Assembly: GCF_001536285.1 (NCBI RefSeq) | Contig: NZ_FAOZ01000038.1 | Span: forward strand, 1-64,000 | Direction: 5' to 3' | DNA length: 64,000 nucleotides | Origin: Parafrankia irregularis | GTDB taxonomy: Bacteria; Actinomycetota; Actinomycetes; Frankiales; Frankiaceae | In this document: positions 30,551 through 47,967 of the stretch, piece by piece | Numbering within the stretch: the stretch's first letter is position 1 | How the letters are laid out: every line of letters begins with the position of its first letter | Made by a program: the position numbers and the translations under genes | The notes under the pieces: model-generated | The model's input: only the letters and a program-made list of their open reading frames with translations | Database searches by the model: none | What the model was told of the DNA's origin: nothing

Positions 30551-32947
30551 TCACGTCCCGGCTGACGGCTCGGCGGCGGCCTGGGCGGCCTTCCAGACGC
30601 GTTCCGGGTGCAGGGGAAGCTCGCGGATGTGGGTGCCGAGTGCCTCGGCGACCGCGTTGCCGATCGCGGCGGGCACCGCCGGGGAGCCCGTCTCCCCCAG
30701 GCCGTGGATGCGGGCACCGTCCGGTCCGGCCGGGTCCTCGGTCATGCCGACGGTGAACGTCTCCGGCAGGTCGCGCACCGACGGGACCCGGTAGTCGAGC
30801 AGGCTGTCGTTGAGCAGCGCCCCCGACTCGCCGCCCCAGACCATCGCCTCCGAGAGGGCCTGCCCGATCCCGAACGCGACGTTCCCCTCACACTGCAGCT
30901 CGGCGAAGGTGGGGTGGACGACCCGCCCGGCGTACGACTCGACGTGCAGGTCGACGACACGCACCGTGCCGGTCTCCAGGTCGACCTCGACCTCGGCGGC
31001 CGCGGCGGCATGGTAGAAGTGCGGCGTCACGACGCCCTGACCGGTCTCGGGGTCCAGGCCCCCGTCGCTGGCGTGCACCTCGGAGACGGTGACGCCGCCG
31101 AGCTTCGCCCGGGAGATCAGCTCGGCGTAGCTCAGACCGGGGCCGAGGCCGCTGCGGATGCGGTCGGCGCGCACGTCCACCGCGGTCGCCGGCACGCCCA
31201 GCAGCGCACCGGCGCGGCGGGCGAGCTCGCCGCGCAGCCGCTCTCCGGCGCGTTCGACGGCCACGCCCATCATCAGCGTCGAGCGTGACGAGCTGGTGGT
31301 CTGGTCCCAGGCGGTGACGGCCGAGTCCGGGTAGGTGACGTGCACCCGCTCGAGCGGGACGCCGGTCGCGTCGGCGGCGAGCTGGGCGAGCACCGTCCGC
31401 GCGCCCTGGCCGATCTCCACCGTGGAGCACACGACGGTGAGGTTGGCGTCCTCGTCGAGCTTGAGCGCCACGGTGGACGTCGACGGTGTCACGGTCGTCT
31501 TCAGGATGGTCGAGACGCCCTTGCCGCGCACGATCCCGGGGGCGACAACGACCCGCCGGGCGGACGCCGGGCCGGGTTTCCAGCCGATGCGGTCGCAGGC
31601 GGTGTCGAGCAGCGCGGCGAGGTGGAAGTCCTCGATGGTCTGCCCGGTGGCGAACGCATCCCCCGGGCGGAGCAGGACGCGGTGGCGCAGTTCGGCGGGG
31701 TCGAGGTCGAGGTGCTCGGCGATGAGGTCGGTGTGGTTCTCGTACGCCCAGGCAACCTGGGGGATGGCGTACCCGCGGAACCCGCCCGACGGGGTGGTGT
31801 TGGTGTAGACGGCGTAGGAGTCGATCGACACGTTCGGGATGTCGTAGGGCCCGGCGGAGCTGTAGCCGCCGTTCTTGATGGTCCGCGGGGAGATGTCGGC
31901 GTAGGCACCGGCGCCCCACAGCACCTCCACCCGACGGGCCAGCAGGGTGCCGTCGGAGCGGAAGCCGGTGCGGATGCGCACCACCGAGCTGTGCCGGGCG
32001 ACGGTGGCGAACTCCTCCGCCCGGGTCAGCTCGACGCGCACCGGCCGGCCGCGGACCGCCCAGGCGAGCACGGCGACGAGCGGCTCCAGCCGCGGGTACG
32101 TCTTCGCCCCGTAGGCACCGCCCACGTTGAGCACCCGTACCCGTACCCGGCTCTCGGGCAGCCTCAGCGTCTCGGCGACCTGACTGCGCACGGTGAAGGG
32201 GGAGGCGGCCGACGTCCATATGTCGACCGTGTCACCGCGCACCGTCGCGATCGTGACGTGCGGCTCCAGCGGCACATGCTGCTGCTGGGGGGTGCGGAAC
32301 TCGTGGGAGAGGATGTGGTCGGAGGCGGCGAACCCGGCGTCGACGTCGCCGCGACGCAGCCTGAAGTGGTTGCAGACGTTGCCGCCGTCGTCGGTGTGCA
32401 GGACGAGGTCGGGAAAGGTCATGACGTCCCGGGTCGGCACGTGCTCGTGCAGGATCGGGGCGTCGGGGGCCATCGCCGCGTCGGGGGTGAACACCGCCGG
32501 CAGCACGTCGTAGTCGACGGTGATGGTGGCGGCGGCCTCGCGGGCGGTGTCGACGTCGCGGGCGATGACCGCGGCGACCGGCTCGCCGGCGAACCGGACC
32601 CGGCCGATGGCCAGCACGGGCCGGTCGGGCAGCACCGGCCCGTAGTACGGGAAGGGCCCGTCCGGCTGCTCCTGCCAGCGGGTCAGGTCCTCACCGGTGA
32701 CGACCGCGACCACACCGCGGGTGGCCCGGGCGGCCGTTACGTCGACCGAGCGCAGGTGGGCGTGGGCGTGCGGGCTGCGCACCAGCACCGCGTGCAGGCA
32801 GCCGGCCGGGACCCGGTCGATGAGGTACGGGAACCGCCCGATCGTGCGGTCGCGGGCGTCACCGACGTCCACCCTGCGCCCGGCCACCTTCATCCCGGGG
32901 TGGCCACCGGCCCGAGCGCGGGGGGCGGTGTCCGCCTCGGGGGTCAC
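30551..32947 (-). CDS. Molybdenum hydroxylase large (Mo-cofactor) subunit, copy 1
   Basis: 798 residues, GTG start overlapping the 2Fe-2S gene stop by four bases. The a/b-hammerhead domain (about 20-130: DRTIGRFPYLIDRV, RSPHAHAHLRSVDV) precedes the Mo-binding part: LEPHVTIATV, NVGGAYGAKTYPRLEP, GGFRGYAIPQVAWAYE, VEIGQGARTVLAQLAA, and the C-terminal GLGETGSPAVPAAIGNA, whose Glu is the catalytic base of the xanthine oxidase family. The GFRGYAIPQ loop is not the CO dehydrogenase loop (AYRCSFR), so it is an aromatic or aldehyde hydroxylase. It uses water to hydroxylate its substrate and passes electrons to the 2Fe-2S and FAD subunits encoded upstream. Last gene of the operon. Confidence 0.93.
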   Translation of the reverse strand: MTPEADTAPRARAGGHPGMKVAGRRVDVGDARDRTIGRFPYLIDRVPAGCLHAVLVRSPHAHAHLRSVDVTAARATRGVVAVVTGEDLTRWQEQPDGPFPYYGPVLPDRPVLAIGRVRFAGEPVAAVIARDVDTAREAAATITVDYDVLPAVFTPDAAMAPDAPILHEHVPTRDVMTFPDLVLHTDDGGNVCNHFRLRRGDVDAGFAASDHILSHEFRTPQQQHVPLEPHVTIATVRGDTVDIWTSAASPFTVRSQVAETLRLPESRVRVRVLNVGGAYGAKTYPRLEPLVAVLAWAVRGRPVRVELTRAEEFATVARHSSVVRIRTGFRSDGTLLARRVEVLWGAGAYADISPRTIKNGGYSSAGPYDIPNVSIDSYAVYTNTTPSGGFRGYAIPQVAWAYENHTDLIAEHLDLDPAELRHRVLLRPGDAFATGQTIEDFHLAALLDTACDRIGWKPGPASARRVVVAPGIVRGKGVSTILKTTVTPSTSTVALKLDEDANLTVVCSTVEIGQGARTVLAQLAADATGVPLERVHVTYPDSAVTAWDQTTSSSRSTLMMGVAVERAGERLRGELARRAGALLGVPATAVDVRADRIRSGLGPGLSYAELISRAKLGGVTVSEVHASDGGLDPETGQGVVTPHFYHAAAAAEVEVDLETGTVRVVDLHVESYAGRVVHPTFAELQCEGNVAFGIGQALSEAMVWGGESGALLNDSLLDYRVPSVRDLPETFTVGMTEDPAGPDGARIHGLGETGSPAVPAAIGNAVAEALGTHIRELPLHPERVWKAAQAAAEPSAGT

Positions 32948-33528
32948 GGGTGTGCCACCTGCGCCGCGCCCGCGCCCGCGGCGGCGGAGGGGCGGGCGTA
33001 GCCGGCGGTGGGGCCCGTGTAGGGGGTGCCGTCGTCGTGGTGGCCGCGCATCCGGTCACGGGCGTCGAGCACCGCGTCCATGATCTTGACGTAGCTGCCG
33101 CAGCGGCACAGGTTGCCGGACAGCTCGGCGCGGATGCGGTCGCGGGAGGCGTCCGGCTCCCGCTCCAGCAGCGACACCGCGGTCAGGATGAACCCAGGGG
33201 TGCAGTACGAGCACTGGAACGCCGTGTGGTCGATGAACGCCTGCTGCACGGGGTGCAGCTCCCCCGGCCGGGCCAGTCCCTCGACGGTGCGCACCGGCCG
33301 GGCGCCGACCACCTGGGCGGGCAGCAGGCAGGAGCTCGCCGGCGCGCCGTCGACCAGCACCGTGCACGAGCCGCAGGCCCCGGCGGTGCAGCCGGGCCGG
33401 GCGCCGAACAGGTCGAGCTCGCGGCGCAGCACGTCGAGCAGGGTGTGGTGGCCGCGCGGGCGGACCTCGACCTCGTCGTCGTTCACGACCAGGCGCAGCG
33501 GCTGTCGCGGGTCGTCGTTGGCCGTCAA
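32944..33528 (-). CDS. Molybdenum hydroxylase 2Fe-2S subunit
   Basis: 194 residues from a TTG preceded by GAGAGG; the start overlaps the previous stop as TTGA. Plant-ferredoxin-like cluster: GCTAGACGSC (C-x4-C-x2-C) with a fourth Cys in ASSCLLPA. Second [2Fe-2S] motif: FQCSYCTPGF and NLCRCGSY. About 160 residues is the family norm; the extra 30 at the C-terminus are flexible (Gly/Ala/His). It carries electrons from the Mo centre to FAD. It lies between two large-subunit genes with 4-base overlaps on both sides, so it may serve both. Confidence 0.93.
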   Translation of the reverse strand: MTANDDPRQPLRLVVNDDEVEVRPRGHHTLLDVLRRELDLFGARPGCTAGACGSCTVLVDGAPASSCLLPAQVVGARPVRTVEGLARPGELHPVQQAFIDHTAFQCSYCTPGFILTAVSLLEREPDASRDRIRAELSGNLCRCGSYVKIMDAVLDARDRMRGHHDDGTPYTGPTAGYARPSAAAGAGAAQVAHP

Positions 33529-35873
33529 CGCGCGATCCTCTCGTAGTCGGCCCGGTCACCCGGGGAGCTGTCGCGGTGGCGCTGGTGCTGGTGCTGGCCT
33601 GGATCGCGCAGTGCGGCGAGCACCCGTTCCGGGCGCAGCGGCAGGTCGGTGAGGACGACGCCGGTCGCGTCCGCGACGGCGGCGGCGACGGCGGGCGCGA
33701 CCGGTGGCACCGCGGTCTCCCCCAGGCCGTAGATCTCGTCGTCGGGCCCGCCGAGCAGGTCGACGGTGATCTCGGGGAGGTCGCTCAGCGCGGGCATCCG
33801 GTAGTCGAGCAGGTCACGCTGCGCCTGGCCGCCGGCCGGGTCGAGGCCGAGCTCCTCACCGAGGACGGAGCCCAAGCCCAGGATCACCGCGCCTTCGACC
33901 TGCATGCGAGCCTCCACCGGGTTGACGACCCGGCCCGCCCAGACCGCGGCGTGGTAGCGCAGGACCCGGACCCGCCCGGTCTCCAGGTCGACGGCGACCT
34001 CGGCGGCGCCGCTCGCCTGGTGCCAGCGGGACGAGGCGATGCCCTGGCCGGTCTCGTGGTCCAGACCGCCCGTCGACGCGTACTCGCCCTCGCAGCGCAG
34101 CTGGCCGGCGCGCAGCACGGTGACCAGCTCGCCGTAGCCGAACGCCGCCGTCCCGGCCTGGACCCGGCCACCCCCCACCTGGACCTGTTCGACGGGAACG
34201 CCGCAGTGGTCCGCGGCGAGGCGGGCGAGCAGCTCGCGCAGGTTCCGGCAGGCGTCCCGCACGGCGCCGCCCATCGCGATCGTGGACCGAGACGAGCTGG
34301 TCTGCTGGTCGTAGGGGGTCACGTCGGTGTCGGGCAGGCTGACCGACACCATCCGCTCACCGATGCCCAGGGCCTCGGCGGCGAGCCGGGCCAGCGCCAG
34401 GTGGGCACCCTGGCCCATCTCGACGGTGCTGGTCAGCACCTGCAGGCTGCCGTCCCGGTTGAGCAGCACCGCGGCCTGGGAGACCGACGGGGTGTTGGTG
34501 CCCTTGACCGTCAGCGCGAGACCCCGGCCGCGGGCCTCCCGCACCTCGGTTCCCGGCCACTCGGTTCCCGGCCACTGCGGGGGGATCGGCTCCCGGCCGA
34601 ACGCGTTCTCGGCGACGTCGAGAAGGGTGTCGTAGTGGCAGTCGGTCATCGACTCGCCGGTGACGTTGCGGGAGCCGTCGCGCAGCAGGTTCACCCGGCG
34701 GACCTGGCGCGGGTCCAGACCCAGGCGGCGGGCGATCTGCTCGGTCTGGCCCTCGTAGGCGAACGCGGCCTGCGGTGAGGCGTACCCGCGGAACGCTCCG
34801 GCCGGCGGGCGGTTGGTGTACACGGCGTACACGTCGACCCAGATGTCGTCGATGTCGTAGGGCCCGCCGAAGCCGTACGCGCCGTTCTTGATCACGCGCG
34901 GGCTGATGTCGGCGTAGGCGCCGGCGTCGAACCAGGCGGTGACGTGCCGGGCGGTGATGCGGCCGTCGGCGCGGACCCCGGTCTCGATCGTGGAGCGGGT
35001 GGCGTGCCGGGTGACGGTGGTGAGGCTCTGCGCGCGGTCCAGGCTGACCCGGACGGGCCGGTCCATGGCCCGGGCGAGGCAGGCGGCGAGCGGCTCGATC
35101 TTCGCGTAGCACTTCGCCCCGAACGCACCGCCCAGGTGGAGGGTGCGTACGGTCACCCGGTCGAGCGCCACGCCGAGCATCTCGGCGAGCTGGACCCGCA
35201 CCTTGTACGGCGTCTGGGTCGCCGACCAGACGACGAGCCGCTCCGCGTCGGGCACCGCCAGCGCGATGTGGTTCTCCAGCGCGCCGTGGTGCATCGCCGG
35301 GGTGGTGAAGGTGTCGGTGAAGACGTGGTCGGCCCGCGCGAGCGCGCCGGGAGCGTCACCCTTGCGGATGACGAAGTGGTTGACCAGGTTGGTGCCCGGC
35401 TCCCGGCGCAGCCGGATCTCGGGGAACGCCGCGGACGGCTCGGCGTCGCGCGGGTGCAGCACCGCACCGGACGGCGGCAGGTCCAGCGCCGCGACCGGGT
35501 CCGTGACCAGCGGCAGCGGGTCGTAGATGACGCCGACGTGGCGCAGCGCCTCGTCGGCGTCATCCGGGTCGGTGGCCAGCGCGACCGCCACCGGCTCCCC
35601 GGCGTAGCGGACCCGTTCGACGGCCAGCGGCGGCTGGTCGCGCAGCACCGGGCCGAAGCGCAGTGGACGTCCACCGAGCGCCGCCTCCAGCTCGCGGCCG
35701 GAGAACACCGCGGCGACCCCGGGCACCAGCCGGGCCGCCGCGGTGTCGACGGCGAGCCGGGCGTGCGCGACGGGGGCGGTCAGCAGCCGGGCGTGCAGCA
35801 GGCCCGGGCCGACGTCCATGAGGTCGGCGAGCATCGGCAGCCCACCGGCGACCTTCGTCCGCGGGTCGATCAC
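33525..35873 (-). CDS. Molybdenum hydroxylase large (Mo-cofactor) subunit, copy 2
   Basis: 782 residues, GTG start overlapping the FAD-subunit stop (GTGA). Same plan as copy 1: hammerhead (about 1-110), then HHGALENHIALAV, HLGGAFGAKCYAKIEP, GAFRGYASPQAAFAYE, VEMGQGAHLALARLAA, and the C-terminal GLGETAVPPVAPAVAAA with catalytic Glu. It is clearly related to copy 1 yet well diverged throughout, so the two are not a fresh duplication. Probably acts on a different substrate or an intermediate of the same pathway, sharing the single 2Fe-2S and FAD subunits. Confidence 0.93.
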   Translation of the reverse strand: MIDPRTKVAGGLPMLADLMDVGPGLLHARLLTAPVAHARLAVDTAAARLVPGVAAVFSGRELEAALGGRPLRFGPVLRDQPPLAVERVRYAGEPVAVALATDPDDADEALRHVGVIYDPLPLVTDPVAALDLPPSGAVLHPRDAEPSAAFPEIRLRREPGTNLVNHFVIRKGDAPGALARADHVFTDTFTTPAMHHGALENHIALAVPDAERLVVWSATQTPYKVRVQLAEMLGVALDRVTVRTLHLGGAFGAKCYAKIEPLAACLARAMDRPVRVSLDRAQSLTTVTRHATRSTIETGVRADGRITARHVTAWFDAGAYADISPRVIKNGAYGFGGPYDIDDIWVDVYAVYTNRPPAGAFRGYASPQAAFAYEGQTEQIARRLGLDPRQVRRVNLLRDGSRNVTGESMTDCHYDTLLDVAENAFGREPIPPQWPGTEWPGTEVREARGRGLALTVKGTNTPSVSQAAVLLNRDGSLQVLTSTVEMGQGAHLALARLAAEALGIGERMVSVSLPDTDVTPYDQQTSSSRSTIAMGGAVRDACRNLRELLARLAADHCGVPVEQVQVGGGRVQAGTAAFGYGELVTVLRAGQLRCEGEYASTGGLDHETGQGIASSRWHQASGAAEVAVDLETGRVRVLRYHAAVWAGRVVNPVEARMQVEGAVILGLGSVLGEELGLDPAGGQAQRDLLDYRMPALSDLPEITVDLLGGPDDEIYGLGETAVPPVAPAVAAAVADATGVVLTDLPLRPERVLAALRDPGQHQHQRHRDSSPGDRADYERIAR

Positions 35874-36817
35874 GCCGCACCCGCCTCGTAGGCCGCGGCG
35901 ATCGCCCGCCGGACATAGACCCGGACCATCTCTACCCGGTAGGCGGCACCGGCGCGCAGGTCGTCGACGCAGGTCACCCGGTCGGCGTACCCGTCGGCGA
36001 CGGCCTTCGCCGAGGTGGAGCCGCGGCCCTCACCGAGCAGCAGCGCGTCGAGGTCGGTGAAGGTGACGGGGCGGTCCGTCGCGCTGCCGACGGCCAGCCG
36101 GGCCCGCACGCACACCCCGGACGGGTCGAAGCCGAGCACGACCGCGACCCCGAGTGCCGAGGAGTCCTCCGCCGAGCGGGTCTTCAGCGTCAGGTAGCGG
36201 CTCACCGTCCGCGGCGGCGGGACGTCGATCTCCACCGAGGTGAGCAGCTCCCCCGGCTCGATCACGGTGATGCCCCCGGCGGGGTAGAAGTCCTCGACGG
36301 CCACCGTGCGCCGCCCGTTCGGGCCATCGAGGCGCACCCGCGCGTCGAGCGCGTGCAGCACCGTCGGGGGATCCCACGCGTAGACCGCGCCGGCGAGGAC
36401 ACCGCCGACGGTGGCGACGGACCGCACCCGGACGTTGCCGACGCGGGAGAAGACGTCTCCGAGCAGCGGCACGGCCGCCCGCAGGTCGGCGTCGGCGGCC
36501 ACCCGGGCGTGGGTGACCGCGGCGCCCAGCACCACCGTTCCCCGGCCGTCCGCCCAGTTCATCTGCTGGACGGCGGAAAGTTCCGGGACGCCCCCGAGCG
36601 CCACCAGCCGGCCGGGCCGACGGCGCGGGTCGGCCAGCGCGAAGGCGAGCTGGGTGCAGCCGGCGGCCGGGACGCTGCCCGGCACGGCCAGCTCGGCGAG
36701 CGCCTCGGCGAGCGATGTCGGGTGCGCCCACCGGGTGGTCGCGGGCGACGCCGCCGGCGGGGCCTCCGGTGCCGTGGGCGGCGCGGCGTCCGTGGGTGTC
36801 GCGGCTGTCGTGCTCAT
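35870..36817 (-). CDS. Molybdenum hydroxylase FAD-binding subunit
   Basis: 315 residues. After an Ala/Pro-rich lead of 25 residues it has the CoxM-type FAD fold: RWAHPTSLAEALAELA, VPAAGCTQLAFALADPR, VLGAAVTHARVAADADL, VRSVATVGGVLAGAVYAWDP, and the C-terminal CO-dehydrogenase flavoprotein domain (YLTLKTRSAEDSSALGVAV, RLAVGSATDRPV). It takes electrons from the iron-sulfur subunit. Unusually for the family the usual AGGTD-type loop reads AAGCTQ, and the second glycine loop has VGGVLAGA. The gene overlaps its neighbours by four bases on each side within the operon. Confidence 0.9.
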   Translation of the reverse strand: MSTTAATPTDAAPPTAPEAPPAASPATTRWAHPTSLAEALAELAVPGSVPAAGCTQLAFALADPRRRPGRLVALGGVPELSAVQQMNWADGRGTVVLGAAVTHARVAADADLRAAVPLLGDVFSRVGNVRVRSVATVGGVLAGAVYAWDPPTVLHALDARVRLDGPNGRRTVAVEDFYPAGGITVIEPGELLTSVEIDVPPPRTVSRYLTLKTRSAEDSSALGVAVVLGFDPSGVCVRARLAVGSATDRPVTFTDLDALLLGEGRGSTSAKAVADGYADRVTCVDDLRAGAAYRVEMVRVYVRRAIAAAYEAGAA

Positions 36818-37668
36818 CGGTCCTCCCCGTCACCCTCACCGTCACCCGCGGCGGCTCCGATGCCGGCGCAGGCGTCCGCCCAGATGGCGGTCATCCGGCC
36901 GCGGTGGCCGGCTTCGAAAGCGCCGCGGAGCCGGTCGAGGGTCACCGGTGGAAGCGGGCGCGGGCGGCCCACCGCCATCGCCGCGAGCCGCACCGACACC
37001 GCCCGGTGCAGCAGCAGCGCGAGCGCGGTGGCCTCCGCGACATCGGCGCCGACCGTCACCAGGCCATGTGCCCGCAGCAGCGCGCCTCGCGCGCCGCCGA
37101 GGCAGGTGGCGAACCCCTGCGCGCGGGCGGTGTCGGCGACCAGGTCCGCGTCGTCGTACCAGGCGAGCCCGGCGGCGAACGGCACCTCGTCCTGGCTGAA
37201 GACACCGTCCGGCAACGGGCCGAGCGTCGTCGCGCTCTGCACCGCGAGCGGATGGGTGTGCACGACCGCGCCGACGTCCGGGCGGGCGGCGTACACGGCC
37301 TGGTGTAGGGCGGTCTCCTCGTGCAGGCGCAGACCGGGGGTGCGCAGTGATCCGTCCGGGCTGATCTCGGCGACCCGGGCGGTGGTGACCCGTGCCAGCG
37401 ACGGGCCGACCGCCTTGACGAACAGGCCGCCGTCGGCCCCGCGCGCACTCACATGCCCGAAGCAGAAATGGTCCTGGCCGTCGGCCGCGAGCACCCGACA
37501 CGCCGTCGCGACCAGCCCGGGCAGCATCCCGCCGGCAGACATCCGGCCGCCGGACATCCCGCCAGCCGGCATCCGGCCGGCAGACGTCCCCCCGGCCAGT
37601 GCGTCGTCAGCCGGCACGTCGCGGGCCGACCCTGCGGGAAGGGTCGGTGAGCTGGCTGGCAGGCTCAC
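36814..37668 (-). CDS. Class II aldolase/adducin family protein
   Basis: 284 residues, GTG start overlapping the preceding stop. The first 45 residues are a Ser/Gly/Met repeat-rich stretch (PAGGMSGGRMSAGGM). The domain follows: LVATACRVLAADGQDHFCFGHV, FVKAVGPSLARVTTARV, LHEETALHQAVYAARP, then the zinc site HTHPLAVQ and a third His in RAHGLVTVGADVAEA. The family splits or isomerises hydroxy-acid or sugar substrates using zinc and a general-base Glu. In this operon it could release a small aldehyde or decarboxylate a ring-cleavage product. Substrate unknown. Confidence 0.9.
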   Translation of the reverse strand: MSLPASSPTLPAGSARDVPADDALAGGTSAGRMPAGGMSGGRMSAGGMLPGLVATACRVLAADGQDHFCFGHVSARGADGGLFVKAVGPSLARVTTARVAEISPDGSLRTPGLRLHEETALHQAVYAARPDVGAVVHTHPLAVQSATTLGPLPDGVFSQDEVPFAAGLAWYDDADLVADTARAQGFATCLGGARGALLRAHGLVTVGADVAEATALALLLHRAVSVRLAAMAVGRPRPLPPVTLDRLRGAFEAGHRGRMTAIWADACAGIGAAAGDGEGDGEDR

Positions 37669-38420
37669 GCCGCGCCCCGGTCGCGGGTGCCGGCCGTCAG
37701 CGTGTCGAGCACCCCGGCGAGGTCCTCCACATCGCCGTACTTGGCATCCAGGTCGAACAGGCTGACCTCGTGTACCAGCGCCGAACGGTCGCCGACCGCC
37801 TCACGCACGACGATGGGGCGAAACCCGAGCCCGCACCCGTCCACCACCGTGGCCCGCACACAGCCGCTGGTGGTGCAGCCGGCGACGAGGATGGTGTCGA
37901 CGCCGTCGCGGCGCAGCCGGTCGGCGAGGTCGGTGCCGAGGAAGGCCGAGGCGTGCTTCTTCACCACCCGTGGCTCCCCCGGCCGGCGGGTCAGCCGCGT
38001 GTCCAGGCCGGTCCACTCGCCGCCCTCGACGAGCAGCCGCTGGGCGCTGATCTTGCGTGGCCAGACCCCGGCGTCGCTCATGTCCGGGGCGTAGGCGACC
38101 TCCGCCCAGTAGACCGGGACGCCCACCCGCCGGGCCGTGGCGACGAGCACGCCGGTCGCCTCGACCACATCACCGAGGTCGCCGCCGAGCGGCGACGCGG
38201 GGTCGGTGAAGCCGCGGATCAGGTCCACGACCACGACGGCCGGTGCCTCACCCCAGCCAACCCGGCCGACCATCCCGGAGGCCGCGAACCGGGCCCGGAG
38301 CCGGTCGAGCTCGGCGAGCGCCGCCCCCGCGCCCGCCCCCGGATCCGATTCCGCTTCCACGGACGGGTTCGGGCTCGGGCTCCCCGGCTGCCGGTCAGGC
38401 ACAGGTGGCTGGTCAGGCAT
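37665..38420 (-). CDS. Cysteine hydrolase, isochorismatase-like (maleamate amidohydrolase type)
   Basis: 251 residues. A flexible Pro/Ser lead of about 30 residues is followed by the hydrolase fold: APAVVVVDLIRGFTDPASPL with the catalytic Asp, VVKKHASAFLGTDL with the catalytic Lys, and ILVAGCTTSGCVRAT with a cis-peptide loop and nucleophilic Cys. This close spacing and the DLIRGFTDP wording match N-carbamoylsarcosine amidase and NicF, which turns maleamate into maleate plus ammonia. Next to a NicX-like ring dioxygenase that role is attractive, but sequence alone cannot fix the substrate. It overlaps both neighbours (4 and 8 bases). Confidence 0.88.
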   Translation of the reverse strand: MPDQPPVPDRQPGSPSPNPSVEAESDPGAGAGAALAELDRLRARFAASGMVGRVGWGEAPAVVVVDLIRGFTDPASPLGGDLGDVVEATGVLVATARRVGVPVYWAEVAYAPDMSDAGVWPRKISAQRLLVEGGEWTGLDTRLTRRPGEPRVVKKHASAFLGTDLADRLRRDGVDTILVAGCTTSGCVRATVVDGCGLGFRPIVVREAVGDRSALVHEVSLFDLDAKYGDVEDLAGVLDTLTAGTRDRGAA

Positions 38421-41240: not shown

Positions 41241-41696
41241 TCAGAAGAACAGCGGCTCGTCGCAGAGCTCGAAGATGTTGCCCTCGGGGTCGATGAACTG
41301 CGCGACCTGGCCCTCCGGCGGCAGCCCGTCGGCGGAAACCGTCGGTGACGGGCCGTGCAGCAGCGTCGCGCCGCGCCGGGTGAGCTCGGCGACGACCGCG
41401 GTCATGTTCTCGACCTTGAACGACATCAGCACGCGGTTGCGGTCCCAGCCCCGCGCCGGGCTGCCCGCGGCCGGCCCGTTGTCCTTGCGGGCCATCAGCT
41501 CCAGGGTGCAGCCGCCGGTGTGGTAGGCAGCGAAGTACGGCGAGGCGTTCTTCACCGGCAGGCCGAGGACGCCCTCGTAGAAGGCCCGCATGGCGGCGAG
41601 GTCGTCGACGTACACCAGGTTCCACGACAGCGGCCCGAGCAGCGGCCCGCCGGTGGACGCGGCCGGTGCGGGGCTCTCGACGGCTTCAGCTGTCAC
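41241..41696 (-). CDS. VOC (glyoxalase/dioxygenase-like) protein
   Basis: 151 residues from GTG 41696. After 20 flexible residues: LGPLSWNLVYVDDLAAMRAFY, GVLGLPV, CTLELMARKDNGP, VLMSFKVENMTAVVAEL, and VAQFIDPEGNIFELCDEP with the metal-binding Glu. It is a paralogue of the protein at 38413-38832, yet the N-terminal His of that copy is replaced (VYVDD), so metal binding may differ. Lies between the ring-cleavage dioxygenase gene and the Rieske gene in the operon. Confidence 0.85.
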   Translation of the reverse strand: MTAEAVESPAPAASTGGPLLGPLSWNLVYVDDLAAMRAFYEGVLGLPVKNASPYFAAYHTGGCTLELMARKDNGPAAGSPARGWDRNRVLMSFKVENMTAVVAELTRRGATLLHGPSPTVSADGLPPEGQVAQFIDPEGNIFELCDEPLFF

Positions 41697-41786: not shown

Positions 41787-42896
41787 TCAGAGCGCGCCGA
41801 CGAGCGGGGCACCGAGCCGGGCGGCGCCGTCGTCCACCCGCAGCTCGTCGACGACGAAACGGCCGTGGTCGAGGATCTGCCGGCCGTCGAGCCACACGCT
41901 GCACCGGCGTACCGGGACGTCCGAGTGCGCGAGGGTGAACCGGCTGCCACCGGCCTCGTTGTTGGGCCCGGTGGAGAACAGCACGTTGCCGGCGAAGCAG
42001 CGGCCGTCCATGCCCTGGGTGGCGGATCGGTCGAGCAGCGCCAGCGCGTTCCAGCGGGCCTTCTCGTTGAGACCCCACCCGATGTGGGACATCGCGAAGC
42101 CCTCGGGGTCGCCCCAGCTCTCCAGGTAGTCCCGGTACAGCTCGGCGTCCGCCCCGGGGCCCTCGATGGAGCGGATGAACCCGTCGACGACGTCGATCGT
42201 GATCGGCGCGTTCACGTAGGTCTTGAACGGGAAGATGATGTCGCCACTGTTGATCACCCAGCGGCCGTTGGCGCTGCCCTCGTTCGGGTAGGCCGCCGCC
42301 AGACCGGCGCTGAGGTGGGCGTGGGTGCCGGGGCCGTTGGTGAACCCCCAGCCACCGCCGGCGCCGAACTGGCCGAGGCCGAAGGTGATGTCGGTGCCGG
42401 CGTCCGAGGTGATCCGCAGCTCGCTGCCCCCGCTGAGCATGGCCACGCTGGCCTGCACCCGCCGCCGCAGGTCGTCCGTCGGGAACAGCCGCTCCAGGAT
42501 CTCCGGCGGCTCGGTGATCATCAGCATCCGGGTGCCGGCGGAGAGGATCTCCTCCTGCTCCGCCGAATGCAGCAGGATGGACAGGTCGACCACCATGTCG
42601 GCCGACTTGAGCGCCTCGACCACCGGGCGCAGGCCGGTCAGGCCGGTCAGGCCGTACACCTCGCCCACCCCGGGGACCGTGGCGGCCGAGCGGGTGATCG
42701 ACGGCAGCATGACAGTGAAGACCCGGGCGCCCAGCGACGCGGCCGCGGCCGCGGTGGTCTCCAGGTACAGCGGCGGCGACTGGGCGTTGCCGAGCACGGC
42801 CACCGTCTCGCCGGGCCGCACGTCGCAGCCTTCGAGCGCACGGCGGAACAGGGTTGTGAGGGTGCCGCCGTCGGCGGCCTGGTTGGGAACGAGCAC
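41787..42896 (-). CDS. Ring-cleaving dioxygenase of the 2,5-dihydroxypyridine dioxygenase (NicX) family
   Basis: 369 residues from a GTG with AGAGG six bases upstream. The chain parallels NicX along its length: ADMVVDLSILLHSAEQEEIL, GTRMLMITEPPEILERLFPT, AAAYPNEGSANGRWVINSGD, IIFPFKTYVNAPITIDV, MSHIGWGLNEKARW, GNVLFSTGPNNEAGG. The iron ligands of NicX (recalled as His265, His318, Asp320) match His271 (SHIGWGL), His324 and Asp326 (AHSDVP), a constant offset of six. NicX opens 2,5-dihydroxypyridine to N-formylmaleamate; the broader family is often labelled leucyl aminopeptidase (M29-like). The substrate here is likely a hydroxylated N-heteroaromatic, which fits the Mo hydroxylases and NicF-like hydrolase downstream. 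Confidence 0.85.
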   Translation of the reverse strand: MLVPNQAADGGTLTTLFRRALEGCDVRPGETVAVLGNAQSPPLYLETTAAAAASLGARVFTVMLPSITRSAATVPGVGEVYGLTGLTGLRPVVEALKSADMVVDLSILLHSAEQEEILSAGTRMLMITEPPEILERLFPTDDLRRRVQASVAMLSGGSELRITSDAGTDITFGLGQFGAGGGWGFTNGPGTHAHLSAGLAAAYPNEGSANGRWVINSGDIIFPFKTYVNAPITIDVVDGFIRSIEGPGADAELYRDYLESWGDPEGFAMSHIGWGLNEKARWNALALLDRSATQGMDGRCFAGNVLFSTGPNNEAGGSRFTLAHSDVPVRRCSVWLDGRQILDHGRFVVDELRVDDGAARLGAPLVGAL

Positions 42897-43360
42897 GATG
42901 CACCTCTCACCGGTGTGGCTTGCCGCTGTGCCGCGATGCCGCGGCCCTTCCGTTCCCCCCAGGGGCGCCGGTCCCGGGAGACTCCCCGTCGGGCCGGGAT
43001 GAGCCCACGAACCGCCGCGCGCCGAGGCACGGCCCGAATTCGTGAAGCCCCGCCGGCCGGGCGCCCGGCCGGCGGTTTTCATGCTCCGTGCACCATGTTT
43101 CGGGGTTTTGTCTCGTCTGTCTCGGAGCCATGAAATCGTGTTCCAAAATGCTCCGGAGATACCGCGGCGCGACGGTTCGGGAGACCGGCGCTGACTGGAT
43201 TCGGCACGGCCGGTCACGCTGACAACAGATATGTCGCGCCGGATCACGGCCCGCTTCGCACCAGGCCCTGCGCCGGATCAGCGGCGGATCGGCACCTGGT
43301 CGCGCCCGGGGAATTAGCCCCGACGAAGAGAACAGAAGGATGGGAAGGAAAATCGGGAGA
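42897..43360. other. Intergenic gap within the catabolic block
   Basis: About 460 bases between the FAA hydrolase gene and the NicX-like gene, with a 26-bp perfect palindrome (43050-43075) and a moderately AT-rich stretch at 43080-43160. A gap this long suggests that the NicX-like gene has its own promoter. No gene is seen. Confidence 0.45.
43050..43075 (+). terminator. Perfect GC palindrome followed by TTTT
   Basis: The arms 43050-43062 and 43063-43075 are exact inverted copies, and TTTTC follows on the plus strand. The form is that of an intrinsic terminator for plus-strand transcription, although the flanking genes run leftward; on the minus strand there is no T-run. It may isolate the two parts of the operon. 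Confidence 0.5.
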
Positions 43361-44188
43361 TCAGGAGAAACGGACGGTGTTCTGCGTGGTGCCGATACCC
43401 TCGATCTCGACCGTGACCACGTCGCCGTCGGCGAGATAGACCTTCGGGTCACGGCCGTGCCCGACACCACCCGGGGTTCCGGTGGTGAGGACGTCACCCG
43501 GCGCGAGTGTGATGAACTGGCTGACGTAGGCCACGATCGTGGCGGGCGGGAAAAGCAGGTCCGAGGTACGCGACTTCTGCATCACCTCACCGTTCACCAG
43601 GGTGCGCAGGGCGAGGTCGTCCGCATTGTCGAGCTCGTCGGGAGTAACCAGTTCGGGGCCGAGCGGGGTCGATCCCTCGAAAGTCTTGCCCTGCAGGAAC
43701 TGCAGGGTGCGGAACTGCCAGTCCCGCATGGTGATGTCGTTCATCACGGTGTAGCCGGCGATGGCGGCGCGGGCCGTGTCCTCGTCGGCGAAACGAACCG
43801 TGGAGCCGATGACGAAGGCGAGCTCGCCCTCCCAGTCGACCTCGCTGCTCACCGGCGGCACGATGATGTCGTCGCGCGCGCCGATCAGGGAGCTGGCGTA
43901 CTTGGCGAACAGCGTCGGGTGGGTCGGTGGGGTGCGCCCCATCTCCTTCAGGTGGGTCGCGTAGTTCAGACCCATGCAGACGATCTTGGGCGGCTGCGGC
44001 ACCAGCGGTGCCAGGTCCGCGCCGTCACGCTCGATCCTCTCGCCGTCAACGGCGGCGGCCTGGCGCCAGTCCGGGCCCGAGGCGATCAGAGTGCCCACGC
44101 TCGCGAACGGGAGCAGGACGATCTCGTCACCCTCGACGCGACCAGCGGCGGTTTCGCCACCGGGACGACGGACAGTGGACAAGCGCAC
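43361..44188 (-). CDS. Fumarylacetoacetate hydrolase (FAH) family protein
   Basis: 275 residues from GTG 44188 with GAGGAG upstream. The N-terminal 60 residues form the small domain; the FAH fold has KIVCMGLNYATHLKEMG, the metal-binding EVDWEGELAFVIG (Glu and Glu/Asp ligands), NDITMRDWQF, GKTFEGSTPLGPELV and PGDVLTTGTPGGVG. Members hydrolyse C-C bonds, hydrate 2-hydroxypentadienoates or decarboxylate oxo-acids in aromatic catabolism. Probably acts on a ring-cleavage product. It follows the LLM gene by 150 bases in the same direction. Confidence 0.92.
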   Translation of the reverse strand: MRLSTVRRPGGETAAGRVEGDEIVLLPFASVGTLIASGPDWRQAAAVDGERIERDGADLAPLVPQPPKIVCMGLNYATHLKEMGRTPPTHPTLFAKYASSLIGARDDIIVPPVSSEVDWEGELAFVIGSTVRFADEDTARAAIAGYTVMNDITMRDWQFRTLQFLQGKTFEGSTPLGPELVTPDELDNADDLALRTLVNGEVMQKSRTSDLLFPPATIVAYVSQFITLAPGDVLTTGTPGGVGHGRDPKVYLADGDVVTVEIEGIGTTQNTVRFS

Positions 44189-44292: not shown

Positions 44293-44353
44293 TTCAGCTG
44301 CTCGGCGGCTGAGCTTTTCAGCTGCTCGGCTGCTGAGCCTCTTCAGCTGCTCG
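44293..44353. repeat. About 25-bp tandem repeat at the LLM gene end
   Basis: TTCAGCTGCTCG occurs at 44293, 44317 and 44342, with GGC.GCTGAGC filling the gaps. The last copy contains the stop codon of the LLM gene (TCA on the plus strand), so the gene end is echoed twice downstream. Confidence 0.8.
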
Positions 44354-45479
44354 CGGTCACCGGAACCGACGCCGCCGCGACCGCGGTCGCCGCCGCCGCC
44401 TCGGCCGCGACACCGTTGTCCGGCGCCGGGAAGGCGGGCATGACCTCGGCGGCGAAGAGCTCCAGCGTGCGGCGGGCATCCGACAGCGGGGTCGCCGCGA
44501 AGTTGATCTGCATGGAGGGCTCGACGTCGCCGAACACCTCGAGGGTCGCGGCCACCTGCTGGCGGACGTCCGCCGGGGTGCCGACGTAGACTTGGGCCTT
44601 GTCCTCGAGCTCGGCCAGCGTCTTCCTGCGCATCCCGGTGATCATGTCGGCGTAGCCCGCGTACTGCGACGGGCTGCGCTCCATGTAGTCCTCCCAGGTG
44701 GAGGCCATCTTGTCGACGTAGTCGGCGTAATGCACGGCGGCGTTGCGCCGGGCCCGGTCGCCGTCGGTGTCGACGAAGCAGTGGATCCCCATCTGAATCC
44801 GCTCGGAGCCGGCCGGGTAACCGGCGTCGAGGCGGGCCTTCCGGTACAGGTCGAGCAGCCCGGCGACCTTCTCGTTCGTCGAGGTGAACGGAATGAACAT
44901 CAGATTGAAGCCCTGGCTGCCCGCCCAGACGAAACTCTCCGGGGTGGACGTCGCCGCGATGAAGACCGGCGGATGGGGCCGCTGGTAGGTCAGGGGAAGC
45001 ATACTCACCGGACCGAACCTGTGAAAGGTGCCGTTCCACACCACATCGGTCTCGGTCCACAGCTTGAGGACCGCGGCAATACCTTCCTGGTGCCGCGCCC
45101 GGCTGGTGTCCATGTCGACTTCGAATGCCTCGAACTCGCCGGGGAGGAACGCCCTCGCGAAGCCGACGTCAAGGCGGCCGTGGGACAGGTTGTCGAGCAT
45201 CGCGAGCTGCCCCGCGAGCTTGATGGGGTGGTTGAACGCCGGGATGTTCGCACCGGTTATCAGCCGAATACGTTCGGTCCTGGTCGCGACGGCCGCGAGG
45301 AAGGTGACGGGGTCCGGGCTGTAGCCCCCGTAGGGGTAGAAGTAGTGTTCGACGATCTTCACCGAGGAGTAGCCGAGGCGGTCCGCGAGGATCGACAGAT
45401 CGAGAGCCTCGTCAAAGAACTGCACAGCAGACTTCTCGGCGGGCGAGACCGTGGGGAAGAAGTTCACTCCGGCGAGCAC
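44343..45479 (-). CDS. LLM class flavin-dependent oxidoreductase
   Basis: 378 residues from GTG 45479, preceded by GGTGGAGG; a GTG 12 bases upstream is in frame but lacks a ribosome site. Bacterial luciferase fold: AGVNFFPTVSPAEKSA, LADRLGYSSVKIVEHYFYP, ERIRLITGANIPAFNHP, LDNLSHGRLDVGFARAFLPG, LTYQRPHPPVFIAATSTPE. It probably uses reduced FMN or F420 with oxygen to oxidise the pathway substrate. It is the first gene of the leftward block, divergent from the GntR/FCD gene. The Ala-rich C-terminal tail is not conserved in such enzymes. No flavin reductase gene is seen nearby. Confidence 0.92.
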   Translation of the reverse strand: MLAGVNFFPTVSPAEKSAVQFFDEALDLSILADRLGYSSVKIVEHYFYPYGGYSPDPVTFLAAVATRTERIRLITGANIPAFNHPIKLAGQLAMLDNLSHGRLDVGFARAFLPGEFEAFEVDMDTSRARHQEGIAAVLKLWTETDVVWNGTFHRFGPVSMLPLTYQRPHPPVFIAATSTPESFVWAGSQGFNLMFIPFTSTNEKVAGLLDLYRKARLDAGYPAGSERIQMGIHCFVDTDGDRARRNAAVHYADYVDKMASTWEDYMERSPSQYAGYADMITGMRRKTLAELEDKAQVYVGTPADVRQQVAATLEVFGDVEPSMQINFAATPLSDARRTLELFAAEVMPAFPAPDNGVAAEAAAATAVAAASVPVTASS

Positions 45480-45548
45480 CGGCACCTCCACCTAACTATA
45501 TCGTCGGTAGACGCTGAAATCACAGTCGAAAGTGCAGCCTTGAGACAT

Positions 45549-45602
45549 TTTTCGTGCTATCGTGCGAAAACTGTTCCAGACTGTGGGGTTCCACCGTGGA
45601 AC
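45549..45602. promoter_or_regulatory. Two palindromes in the divergent promoter region
   Basis: At 45549-45570 the arms TTTTCG and CGAAAA flank ten bases. At 45588-45602 GTTCCAC-C-GTGGAAC is a perfect 15-bp palindrome. Both lie between the LLM gene and the GntR/FCD gene and may bind the regulator or another factor. Confidence 0.45.
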
Positions 45603-45687
45603 ACGAGTTTCCGCCGGGTGCGTCAGGGTGGTTTCGACGGCCAGGGACAGGAGCTCACTCCAGCCGACGACGACGTCGATTCATTTC

Positions 45688-45702
45688 TGTATACTGTCCA
45701 CA
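45688..45702. promoter_or_regulatory. Likely GntR operator (TGTATAC type)
   Basis: TGTATACTGTCCACA lies 22 bases before the start of the GntR/FCD gene. The core TGTATAC recurs in two inverted sites at 48446-48458 and 48575-48587 upstream of the second GntR gene. TGTATACA-like sequences are typical of FadR-type GntR proteins. Confidence 0.55.
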
Positions 45703-45724
45703 ATTCTGCGGCTGAGGTGCACGG

Positions 45725-46393
45725 GTGGGAGATATGAAGACGACGATCGGCGCGGCCTACCGTCCGCTGCGGCAGCTCGTCGCCGACGAGCTGCGCGGTC
45801 GCATTCTTCGCGGCGAGCTCACCCAGGGCAGCCGTGTCATCGAGGACCGCCTCGCCGAGGAGCTGGGGGTCTCCCGCAACCCTGTCCGCGAGGCGATCCG
45901 GCTGCTGGAGTCGGAGGGCCTCGTCGAGGTCACCCCGCGCAAGGGCGTCATGGTCACGGTGATCAGCGGCGAGGAGGCCGACGACCTCATCGAGGTCCGC
46001 GCCGCGCTGGAGGTCACCGCGGTACGCCGGGCGGCGACCAGGGGCATCACCGCCGAGATCGACGCCGAGCTCGAGGCGGTGCTGGTCGAGGGCGAAGGCG
46101 TCACCGAGGCGGGCGCCTACGAGCGCCTCTCCGCGCTCAACGCCCGCTTCCACGACCTGCTCGCGCGGGCCAGCGGCAACAACCACCTCGTCGAGGTCCT
46201 GCGTGACCTGCAGAACCGGCTGCAGCTGCTGTTCTCCGTCGGCGTGTCGCGCCGCTCGGGGCGCGCCTGGGAGGAGCACCGCCGCATCCTGGAGGCGATT
46301 CGCGCCCGGGACGCGGACTGGGCGGAGGCGGAGATGCGCGCACACATCAACGGCGCGGCGCACCGCTACCAGAAGGAGAAGCCGCCGGCCTAG
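45725..46393 (+). CDS. GntR family regulator, FadR/FCD subfamily
   Basis: 222 residues; GTG 45725 has GAGG upstream, and an ATG 9 bases later is also possible. The winged helix is standard: LRQLVADELRGRILRGEL, DRLAEELGVSRNPVREAIRL, LEVTPRKGVMV-like wing (VEVTPRKGVMVTVI). The FCD ligand domain (about 85-210) has DLIEVRAALEVTAVRRAA, the metal-binding LNARFHDLLARASGNNHL and EEHRRILEAIRARDADWAE, with the expected Asp/His residues. FCD regulators respond to carboxylic acids or aromatic intermediates. Divergent from the long catabolic operon and preceded by a TGTATAC site, it is the likely regulator of that operon. Confidence 0.92.
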   Translation: MGDMKTTIGAAYRPLRQLVADELRGRILRGELTQGSRVIEDRLAEELGVSRNPVREAIRLLESEGLVEVTPRKGVMVTVISGEEADDLIEVRAALEVTAVRRAATRGITAEIDAELEAVLVEGEGVTEAGAYERLSALNARFHDLLARASGNNHLVEVLRDLQNRLQLLFSVGVSRRSGRAWEEHRRILEAIRARDADWAEAEMRAHINGAAHRYQKEKPPA

Positions 46394-46452
46394 CCGGGAT
46401 GCCGGTGCCGGCTCCCTCGATGGCGCCGGCACCGCGAGGGCTGCCGGCAGCG

Positions 46453-46524
46453 CCGGAGACGTCAGTGCCACTGGATACGTCAGTGCCACCGGATACGTCA
46501 GTGCCGCGGGAGGCGTCAGCGGTG
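46453..46524. repeat. 18-bp tandem repeat, 4 copies
   Basis: Units of 18 bases (ccggatacgtcagtgcca type) stand at 46453, 46471, 46489 and 46507; the last is degenerate. It fills the gap between the convergent GntR/FCD and amidase genes. Confidence 0.85.
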
Positions 46525-46557
46525 TGGCAGCGGCGGCGCGAACGCGCCGAACGGCCG

Positions 46558-47967
46558 TCACCATGGCGAGGCTGGCGCGACGAGTGGCCAGGGGCGGTCG
46601 CGCTCGACCGCCGCGGCAAGCTCGAGCAGCAGGTCGTCGCGGTGGTGCGGCGCGAACAGGTGCAGGCCCACCGGCAGGCCGGTCGGGCCCGTCCCCACCG
46701 GGATGGAGATCGCCGGGCAGCCGCTGATGTTCGCCAGGGGAAGCGGGCCCGGCGCGGGGCTGCCCGTCTCGGCGTCGAAGGCCTCTCCCGTCGTCGGGCA
46801 GGCCACGAGGTCGACGTCGTCGAACAGCGCCGCCATGGTCTCGATGACGTCGATCCGGTAGGTGTCCAGCTCGGTGAGGACCCGGGCGTCGAGGCTGTCC
46901 GCGGCCACCATCACGTCGCGGATCTCCGTCGTGAGCTCGTCCGCGCACGCGGGCCAGTAGGGGCCCAGGAACCGCCGGATGCGCAGCGCGCCGATCGCGG
47001 CGAACGCCGCCGACGGTCCGGGGACCACCGGGGTCGCCAGCGCGGCCAGCCGCAGGCCCGCGGCCGCGACGAGGTCGCGCAGCGCCCGCTCCACCACCGT
47101 GACCACGCCCTGGTCGTGCGCGGCGCCACCGAGGTCGGGCAGCCAGGCGACCCGCAGGCCCGCGGTGGGCACTGTCCCGAGACCGACCTCGAACCGCGCA
47201 GAGATCGGGGCACTGAACGGATCACGCGGGTCGAAGCCGGCGGTGGCGTCGAGCGCGCGGGCGATGTCGCGCACCGAACGGCTCAGCGTGGTCGTGACCA
47301 CGGTGAACGGCTCCAGCACCGGCTCCGGTCCACCGGGCACGATCCGCCAGCTGACCTTGAGCCCGGGCAGGCCGCACATCGCCGCCGGCTGACGGGTCGA
47401 GCCGCCGCCGTCCGTCGCCGTCGCCAGCGCGAACAGGCCACCGGCCACCGCGGCGGCGCTGCCACCCGACGAGCCGCCGGCGGACGCCGTCAGCCGCCAC
47501 GGGTTGCGGGTGATGCCGTGCAGGCGGCTCGCGGTGTGCGCGCCGCGGGCCAGCTCACTGGACGTCGTCTGCGCCACCGGGATCGCCCCGGCCGCGACGA
47601 GCCGCCGAACCTGGGTCGAGTGGCGGGCGGACCGCCTCCCCCGCAGGGGCACCGACGCGTCAGCCCGCGGCCAGCCGGCGACCTGCTCCAGTTCCTTCAC
47701 CGCGAACGGCACGCCGGCGAGCGGCAGGGCGAGGTCGACCTGCGCGGCCGCCCGGCGCGCCGCGTCGGCGTCGACATGGCACACCGCGCCCAGCCGCGAC
47801 CGCTCCAGCGCGCCCAGCACCCGTTCCAGTTCGGTGACCGGGTCGCGGTCCCCACGCCGGTAGCTGTCCACCAGCCCGACCGCGTCCCCGGCCCAGGGCG
47901 CGGCCGTCCCGCCGGAGGCCGTCCCGCCGGAGGTCACCTCGGTGGTCGCTGCCGGCTGGCTCAGCAC
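46558..47967 (-). CDS. Amidase signature family hydrolase
   Basis: 469 residues from GTG 47967. Amidase signature: PLAGVPFAVKELEQVAGW with the catalytic Lys, SAGGSSGGSAAAVAGG with the cis-Ser, and ATDGGGSTRQPAAMCGLPGL with the nucleophilic Ser. The C-terminal part has LACPTTGEAFD-like and NISGCPAISIPVG. It hydrolyses an amide to acid plus ammonia. Its start overlaps the end of the upstream VOC gene by 7 bases, so the two form an operon. In a pathway for N-heteroaromatics it could deamidate or deformylate a ring-opened product such as a maleamate. Substrate not proven. Convergent with the GntR/FCD gene. Confidence 0.92.
   Translation of the reverse strand: MLSQPAATTEVTSGGTASGGTAAPWAGDAVGLVDSYRRGDRDPVTELERVLGALERSRLGAVCHVDADAARRAAAQVDLALPLAGVPFAVKELEQVAGWPRADASVPLRGRRSARHSTQVRRLVAAGAIPVAQTTSSELARGAHTASRLHGITRNPWRLTASAGGSSGGSAAAVAGGLFALATATDGGGSTRQPAAMCGLPGLKVSWRIVPGGPEPVLEPFTVVTTTLSRSVRDIARALDATAGFDPRDPFSAPISARFEVGLGTVPTAGLRVAWLPDLGGAAHDQGVVTVVERALRDLVAAAGLRLAALATPVVPGPSAAFAAIGALRIRRFLGPYWPACADELTTEIRDVMVAADSLDARVLTELDTYRIDVIETMAALFDDVDLVACPTTGEAFDAETGSPAPGPLPLANISGCPAISIPVGTGPTGLPVGLHLFAPHHRDDLLLELAAAVERDRPWPLVAPASPW

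Follow-up and report, generated by a model that had tools for sequence, protein, structure and literature searches.

Which compound is taken apart by the enzymes encoded around a NicX-like ring-cleavage dioxygenase in Parafrankia irregularis, and does that dioxygenase truly belong with NicX? The question is raised by the window analysed here, a stretch of 64,000 nucleotides (contig NZ_FAOZ01000038.1, positions 1 to 64,000), for which a preliminary description had proposed an operon for the degradation of an N-heteroaromatic compound, resembling nicotinate breakdown or representing a variant pathway for a related ring. There is good support for the notion of an operon that serves N-heteroaromatic catabolism and has a NicX-family dioxygenase at its centre. 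As for the type of pathway, a variant for another ring fits better, whereas a nicotinate-like route through 2,5-dihydroxypyridine is weakened because the residue equivalent to Glu177 of NicX is a Gly and because homologs of NicC, NicD and NicE were not seen among the open reading frames (ORFs) chosen for scanning in the block. We consider it fairly probable that the region from 30551 to 61114 is a catabolic island of some Frankia and Parafrankia strains, acting on a substituted or two-ring N-heteroaromatic compound that is opened by a NicX subfamily of changed specificity. Each of its enzymes belongs to a known family, and the unit is larger and more unusual than first stated.

The protein encoded at 41787-42896 (minus strand) was placed by PDB matches, alignment, a tree and a predicted model. 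A sequence search returned PpNicX, the 2,5-dihydroxypyridine 5,6-dioxygenase from Pseudomonas putida KT2440 (7cn3, E 1.9e-82), as the sole PDB relative at E<=1, and the predicted model (pLDDT 81.8) superimposed on 7cn3 with a Z-score of 48.2 and a root-mean-square deviation (rmsd) of 1.5 Å over 346 residues (Foldseek E 1.4e-43). The M29 peptidase PepS, which has a related fold, was more distant (Z 22.8, rmsd 4.2) in a structural ranking used as far as the M29 peptidase rows, and the M29 aminopeptidase model PF02073 gave no match to the protein at E<=1. A peptidase identity was therefore rejected, and the first outcome that the preliminary description had named as refuting, a grouping with peptidases, did not materialize. 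None of the Pfam and NCBIfam models matches the protein, and a canonical NicX copy in another actinobacterial locus (L031) likewise escapes Pfam. The structure alignment with PpNicX (7cn3, 7cup) gave 42% identity, and the two proteins share the fold, the four iron ligands and the equivalents of Arg293, His189 and His105. The constant offset claimed for the ligands was borne out: His271, His324 and Asp326 align with PpNicX His265, His318 and Asp320 at an offset of 6 throughout, and so does the fourth ligand, Ser308, with Ser302. In PpNicX numbering, H265, S302, H318, D320, R293 and H189 were invariant in 112/112 aligned rows, a set that counts several genomes more than once. The 41787-42896 product thus belongs genuinely to the NicX family of Fe(II) dioxygenases. 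A remote NicX/M29-like paralogue was also observed at another site of the genome (L003, G000:C6:171326-172249), with 27-28% identity and a PF02073 match under the cut-off.

The enzyme departs from PpNicX at the residues next to the substrate. As described in the consulted part of PMC7910607, Glu177 of PpNicX bonds N1 and O1 of 2,5-dihydroxypyridine, and an E177A mutant is left with 2.7% of the activity. The Parafrankia protein has Gly182 at this place. Across the 112 aligned rows, position 177 is occupied by Glu in 86, Gly in 15, Ser in 6 and Gln in 5; all 15 Gly rows are from Frankiaceae, corresponding to six genomes with duplicate loci, and no other residue was found there in that family. 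Of the pair Glu177 and His189, taken to mark NicX proper, the 15/15 Frankiaceae rows keep the His and replace the Glu with Gly. These rows also carry Gly at the place of Val175 and Tyr at that of Cys76, and they keep the equivalent of His105, a position occupied by Phe in 85/112 rows. In a tree of 47 rows, the Frankiaceae copies form their own branch (support 100/99). Since the residue that recognizes 2,5-dihydroxypyridine is a Gly in Frankiaceae, this compound is less likely to be the substrate, and the alignment suggests that these enzymes probably have an altered specificity, directed to another ring. Because the grip of Glu177 on N1 and the C2 oxygen is lost, and Gly, Gly and Tyr stand at Val175, Glu177 and Cys76, that ring probably bears a substituent or a fused ring at the Glu177 face, as would an N-substituted hydroxypyridone or a quinoline-like two-ring remnant. 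NicX relatives lacking Glu177 may, in general, have moved to other substrates.

A second line of evidence came from the conservation of the block. Its genes had been placed between 30551 and 47967, and they are indeed found there, but the conserved unit continues to 61114 and comprises 25 genes, from the first large subunit of a molybdenum (Mo) hydroxylase (MoL1) through a gene for a metallo-beta-lactamase-fold protein. A genome-stretch search found 25/25 of them in three comparison genomes from two genera (G331, G347 and G038), with order and relative strand kept; two further genomes (G215 and G300) were concordant up to the limit of their short contigs. Ratios of non-synonymous to synonymous substitution rates (dN/dS, calculated against G347 and G038) ranged from 0.06 to 0.51 across all 25 genes. 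This range, together with the retention of order and strand, takes the block beyond chance. The genes for the NicX-family enzyme, a Rieske oxygenase, the luciferase-like monooxygenase LLM2 and the second large subunit of the Mo hydroxylase (MoL2) co-occur in an identical set of 6/35 Frankiaceae genomes: 3/6 in the window's genus, 3/13 in the genus denoted g3 and 0/16 elsewhere (the order-level search covers the same 35 genomes as the family-level one). Among the best 80 of 179 loci retrieved by a contig-wide scan with the NicX query alone, the closest proteins were those of Parafrankia sp. EUN1f (98% identity, L034), Frankia sp. EI5c (92%, L035), AiPs1 (84%, L036) and AgKG'84/4 (83%, L037).

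Searches further afield disclosed no island outside the family: the Rieske query matched one of 396 Actinomycetota genomes at E<=1e-60, namely its own, and the VOC2 query (a small protein of the vicinal oxygen chelate, VOC, family) matched three of 246 genomes of the class at E<=1e-20, all from Frankiaceae. With NicX as the query in 393 genomes of the class (E<=1e-40), nothing fell between 47% identity (a partial match) and 82%, and all 206/206 plasmid records matching NicX were below 60% identity. Among the open-licence papers listed, none was seen to report that Frankia breaks down N-heteroaromatic compounds by way of a NicX enzyme.

The companions attributed to the dioxygenase, namely a Mo hydroxylase, a NicF-like hydrolase, a Rieske oxygenase with a short-chain dehydrogenase/reductase (SDR), a fumarylacetoacetate hydrolase (FAA) family protein, an aldolase and an amidase, were all recovered with family models on the minus strand; MoL2, LLM1 (44343-45491) and a regulator (45725-46393) had gone unnamed. 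Pathways for N-heteroaromatic compounds typically include a Mo hydroxylase, amide hydrolases and a Rieske oxygenase from the carbazole/oxoquinoline family. The Mo hydroxylase is of the xanthine dehydrogenase type, with large, FAD and 2Fe-2S subunits carrying the expected Glu and Cys motifs. It is encoded by four minus-strand genes: MoL1 (30551-32947; PF02738/PF20256/PF01315), with a GLGETG motif whose Glu is presumably the catalytic one; the 2Fe-2S subunit MoS (32944-33528; PF01799, PF00111), with both cysteine motifs; MoL2 (33525-35873; PF02738/PF20256), with GLGETA; and the FAD subunit MoM (35870-36817; PF00941, PF03450). MoL1 and MoL2 are 45% identical and both complete with GxGE, and within this run they share a single gene each for the 2Fe-2S and the FAD subunit. 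The best PDB match of MoL1 was 4-hydroxybenzoyl-CoA reductase alpha (298 bits), followed by quinoline 2-oxidoreductase (229 bits).

The Rieske oxygenase (39791-41161, minus strand), with its CxH/CxxH motif, scored 347 bits against the homotrimeric ring hydroxylase family PF11723 (cut-off 24.4), to which carbazole 1,9a-dioxygenase CarAa and 2-oxoquinoline 8-monooxygenase OxoO belong. It matched carbazole dioxygenase with 269 bits and 2-oxoquinoline 8-monooxygenase (1z01) with 174.5 bits, and is about 37% identical to plasmid-borne relatives. Its Rieske motif and 2-His-1-Asp iron-site residues align with those of CarAa at the positions that we take to be the iron ligands. In contrast to the car pathway, the dioxygenase CarB, the hydrolase CarC and the electron carriers CarAc/CarAd were not seen among the chosen ORFs that were scanned. 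The SDR gene (38964-39719, minus strand; PF13561) encodes GGTQGIG and YGASK motifs. Three VOC proteins had been counted in the block: VOC1 (38413-38832) and VOC2 (41241-41696), both matching PF00903, do lie inside it, and the gene for VOC3 (47961-48419) overlaps that of the amidase and thus the end of the original range by 7 bases, all three on the minus strand. The paralogues VOC1 and VOC2 are 47% identical and, by inspection of a three-VOC alignment that is poor in its first half, lack matching His metal ligands. VOC3 presents His26, His90 and Glu139 at the positions of the metal triad, conserved in 3/3 aligned copies.

The remaining hydrolytic and carbon-carbon-cleaving functions are also encoded on the minus strand. 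The isochorismatase-fold cysteine hydrolase (37665-38420; PF00857) belongs to the NicF/N-carbamoylsarcosine amidohydrolase group; it scored 238 bits against 26st and 125 bits against 3ot4/3uao, which we take to be NicF, with Asp, Lys and Cys aligned, catalytic residues common to 3ot4/3uao and N-carbamoylsarcosine amidohydrolase. The amidase (46558-47967; PF01425) has the signature motifs GGSSGG and DGGGSTRQPA. The class II aldolase/decarboxylase family protein (36814-37668; PF00596), with HTH and HGL motifs, belongs to a family that includes ring decarboxylases; its match to the NCBIfam model of 3,4-dihydroxyphthalate decarboxylase (78.5 bits, below the 200 cut-off) and a weak one to 2z7b, presumably a decarboxylase of a vitamin B6 pathway, allow for such a role. 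The FAA protein (43361-44188) matched PF01557 with 239 bits and 6j57 with 234 bits. FAA-family enzymes may form the final step of other pyridine pathways; in the consulted part of PMC7356986, KpiD is proposed for the last step of 4-hydroxypyridine breakdown.

The leftward run starts with the FMN monooxygenase LLM1 (minus strand; PF00296), whose best PDB match was 7bip (358 bits). A polyketide paper that cites 7bip once (PMC8093152) assigns, in the part consulted, 7BIO to RslO4 and presents RslO1 as luciferase-like, so 7bip is probably RslO1. The plus-strand half contains a GntR/UTRA regulator, GntR2 (48703-49611; PF00392, PF07702), an MFS transporter (49550-51016; PF07690) and an importer made of an oligopeptide-type ABC ATPase (51032-52510; PF00005), two permeases (52886-54475 and 54478-55401; PF00528) and a family 5 solute-binding protein (55545-57281; PF00496). 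There follow LLM2 (57478-58827; TIGR03860, 400 bits; 264 bits to dibenzothiophene desulfurization enzyme A, 5tlc) and LLM3 (58827-60116; TIGR03860, 378 bits), both NtaA/DmoA-family FMN monooxygenases, and the metallo-beta-lactamase-fold hydrolase (60284-61114; PF00753, 26.5 bits), which ends the conserved run examined. An LLM2 paralogue (66-68%; for instance G000:C18:49928-51235) was observed in 5/6 island-bearing Frankiaceae genomes and 0/29 others (E<=1e-150); its surroundings vary, not being conserved with G038 and having three neighbours matched in G347.

Among the seven genes from MoL1 through VOC1, adjacent ones share 4 to 8 bases, and from VOC1 through LLM1 the gaps measure about 70 to 155 bases, except for 464 bases between the NicX and FAA genes. 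On account of these overlaps and short gaps, the stretch from LLM1 (45491) down to MoL1 (30551) reads as a single 13-gene operon, in which the 464-base gap perhaps contains an internal promoter. An ORF at 42907-43497, without a family and with partial matches in Parafrankia, was treated as intergenic.

Beyond LLM1 lies the GntR/FCD regulator (45725-46393, plus strand; PF00392, PF07729), preceded by an operator-like site, GTATACTGTCCAC (45689-45701, plus strand), with one exact match in the 9.54-Mb genome. The site is identical in 6/6 island genomes, and the DNA around it between LLM1 and the regulator is poorly conserved. Between VOC3 and GntR2, the related GTATACAGTCGAC occurs at 48446-48458 (minus strand) and again at 48575-48587 (plus strand). 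The plus-strand core of the former, ACTGTATAC, is kept in 4/4 genomes compared; the latter is unchanged in G331 and G347, with GTATACAGTGGAC in its place in G038. In the organism's own genome, a one-mismatch scan with GTATACNGTCCAC gave 12 places versus 4 for the reversed control; just three of them have the form GTATACNGTC[CG]AC, all within the two divergent promoter regions, and this motif is kept across genera. With three mismatches allowed, a 15-base motif had 2 matches in the window versus 0.23 expected, and 2/100 shuffles also reached 2. A consensus scan of 45400-48800 revealed no promoter-like site, and a terminator-like site at 45665-45678 was no more than shuffles give. The GntR/FCD protein would be the one that reads the operator-like motif. 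To the left of the island, the region 24524-29390 encodes two class III CoA-transferases, a solute-binding protein and a TetR regulator, and is common to G331 and not to G038; at 15184-17505 the window encodes a serine/threonine kinase fused to WD40 repeats.

How does this gene set compare with known pathways? With the nic clusters for nicotinate it shares the Mo hydroxylase, the NicX-family dioxygenase and the NicF-like amidohydrolase. It differs in adding the Rieske oxygenase, SDR, FAA protein, aldolase, three LLM monooxygenases and importers. The noted lack of NicC and NicD held for the ORFs chosen for scanning within the block and next to it, where FAD_binding_3 and alpha/beta hydrolase models gave no match; a PF17645 (NicE-like) protein appeared elsewhere in the genome as one weak match (36 bits). 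The lum operon for lumichrome and riboflavin, whose enzymes dismantle a two-ring N-heteroaromatic compound, resembles the island in a xanthine-oxidase-type hydroxylase, a Rieske oxygenase and a putative FAA hydrolase gene. Nothing seen here corresponds to its four-component Rieske system, thiamine pyrophosphate-dependent decarboxylase, catechol dioxygenase or P450, and the consulted part of the report (PMC12746152) mentions no NicX-type gene. A lumichrome/riboflavin pathway, considered in view of the hydroxylase and the Rieske enzyme, was rejected, as the gene content differs.

Among other NicX loci, two canonical actinobacterial ones that keep Glu177 have different companions: in L031, NicX goes with a NicC-like flavin hydroxylase, a Mo hydroxylase and an isochorismatase, and in L029 a PF17645 (NicE-like) protein adjoins it. 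L033 (genome G241), with a NicX of the Gln177 type, shares with the island a Rieske oxygenase, an SDR, a GntR/FCD regulator and an isochorismatase. However, its NicX is 34% identical, its Rieske protein is from another family, and it has a LigB dioxygenase and a nitrilase-type hydrolase; it is possibly another two-dioxygenase pathway for an N-heteroaromatic compound. The same locus (G241:C57:81000-100900) also encodes a Complex1_51K protein. A Rieske motif was found near 1/76 named Glu177 loci (L078, probably spurious), a rough count, as L104 has a weak Rieske match that the motif scan did not pick up. The link between a NicX lacking Glu177 and a Rieske oxygenase is shown for Frankiaceae and one other genome (L033), and does not constitute a general rule. 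L140 (G272:C1:10000-29900) has an apparent operon of NicX and an alpha/beta hydrolase, with glutamine synthetase-like, acetoacetate decarboxylase-like and luciferase-like proteins nearby.

These elements can be arranged in a putative sequence of events, in which the order of the reactions, the substrate class and the role of each hydrolase are inferred. The compound would be imported by the ABC and MFS transporters and oxidized by the FMN monooxygenases LLM2/LLM3 and LLM1. The Mo hydroxylase, with two alternative catalytic subunits, would hydroxylate next to the ring nitrogen; the Rieske oxygenase would dihydroxylate and the SDR rearomatize. The NicX-family enzyme would then open the hydroxylated N-ring, with VOC3 as a possible second, extradiol-type ring-opening enzyme. 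The isochorismatase-type hydrolase and the amidase would hydrolyze amides and free the nitrogen, and the FAA hydrolase and the class II aldolase would, by carbon-carbon cleavage or decarboxylation, deliver central metabolites.

Several observations weigh against this reconstruction. The 464-base gap between the NicX and FAA genes may split the leftward run, and the half with the importer, LLM2 and LLM3 could be devoted to a different compound and merely be linked; DszA- and YtnJ-type relatives act on sulphur compounds. The scanned ORFs showed no electron-transfer partner (ferredoxin or reductase) of the Rieske oxygenase and no flavin reductase to supply LLM1, LLM2 and LLM3. Membership in the MoL, FAA and aldolase families, all of them broad, does not fix the substrate; the family scores of VOC3 are weak (PF00903, 34 bits), as are its extradiol matches, and its predicted model was unusable (pLDDT 47). 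In the 47-row tree, the support for the branch of 33 Glu177 rows (91/75) is under the mark, and the joining of Frankiaceae with the Ser177 rows was flagged as a possible long-branch artefact. Three other loci lacking Glu177, L138 (Gln177), L139 and L140 (Ser177), presented no Rieske motif in wide flanks, and in L140 the alpha/beta hydrolase adjoins NicX, as a deformylase would. Finally, Gly at position 177 leaves room for 2,5-dihydroxypyridine because the E177A mutant is weakly active on it, and the lost contact could be made up for elsewhere in the pocket.

The alternative that survives best, although we regard it as unlikely, is a quinoline-type pathway for a two-ring compound. The Mo hydroxylase would make a 2-oxo ring; the Rieske oxygenase, SDR and VOC3 would remove the carbocycle; and the NicX variant would open the ring that is left, such as 2,3,6-trihydroxypyridine, to N-carboxymaleamate, which would lose CO2 without NicD, leaving the isochorismatase to yield maleate and ammonia. 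A trihydroxypyridine route is known in quinoline breakdown, and the scheme would account for NicD not being seen. The membership of 2-oxoquinoline 8-monooxygenase in PF11723 and its match to the Rieske protein, the second place of quinoline 2-oxidoreductase among the MoL1 matches and the His-His-Glu set retained in VOC3 all speak for it. However, the Rieske protein is nearer to carbazole dioxygenase, VOC3 resembles extradiol enzymes weakly, and a maleate isomerase was not seen in the block, the PF17645 match elsewhere being weak. Moreover, trihydroxypyridine leaves the Gly unexplained, because its N1-H and C2 oxygen would still be on offer to Glu177.

A nicotinate/hydroxypyridine pathway is harder to sustain, and we hold it to be improbable. 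NicX would here cleave 2,5-dihydroxypyridine in spite of Gly182, with LLM1 in place of NicC, the amidase in place of NicD and the isochorismatase acting as NicF. The retained iron site and His105 and His189 equivalents, the Mo hydroxylase, the isochorismatase residues aligned with 3ot4/3uao (taken to be NicF) and the residual activity of E177A, as given in the part of PMC7910607 consulted, are consistent with it. Against it stand the Gly found in six of six Frankiaceae genomes, the greater closeness of the isochorismatase to 26st than to 3ot4 and the canonical copies of the same class, which keep Glu177 alongside a flavoprotein resembling NicC (L031) or a PF17645 protein (L029); the Rieske oxygenase, SDR, FAA protein and aldolase would be superfluous. 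That the enzyme opens a nitrogen-free ring, or that the island serves biosynthesis or detoxification instead of catabolism, is very doubtful: the loss of Glu177 as the ring nitrogen contact, the closeness of LLM1 to the luciferase-like 7bip, which a polyketide paper cites (PMC8093152, consulted in part), and the two VOC proteins without His ligands, which could be binding proteins, would fit, but the enzymes for amide hydrolysis, the Mo hydroxylase and the FAA hydrolase indicate N-ring catabolism, and the ORFs scanned revealed no core enzyme of a biosynthetic pathway.

The reading of the island as a catabolic unit for a substituted or two-ring N-heteroaromatic compound can be extended tentatively, with more doubt than confidence. 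The Gly177 subfamily of NicX might open N-substituted or fused hydroxypyridines and, with the carbazole-type Rieske oxygenase and the small extradiol VOC protein, two different ring-opening dioxygenases of a root-nodule symbiont might dismantle a two-ring N-heteroaromatic compound from plants or soil, in a pathway not previously described. A natural NicX subfamily with the recognition Glu replaced provides a clean test case for the specificity of NicX enzymes, and the distribution of the island in 6/35 genomes, together with the shared operator-like motif, offers a ready strain-to-strain comparison.

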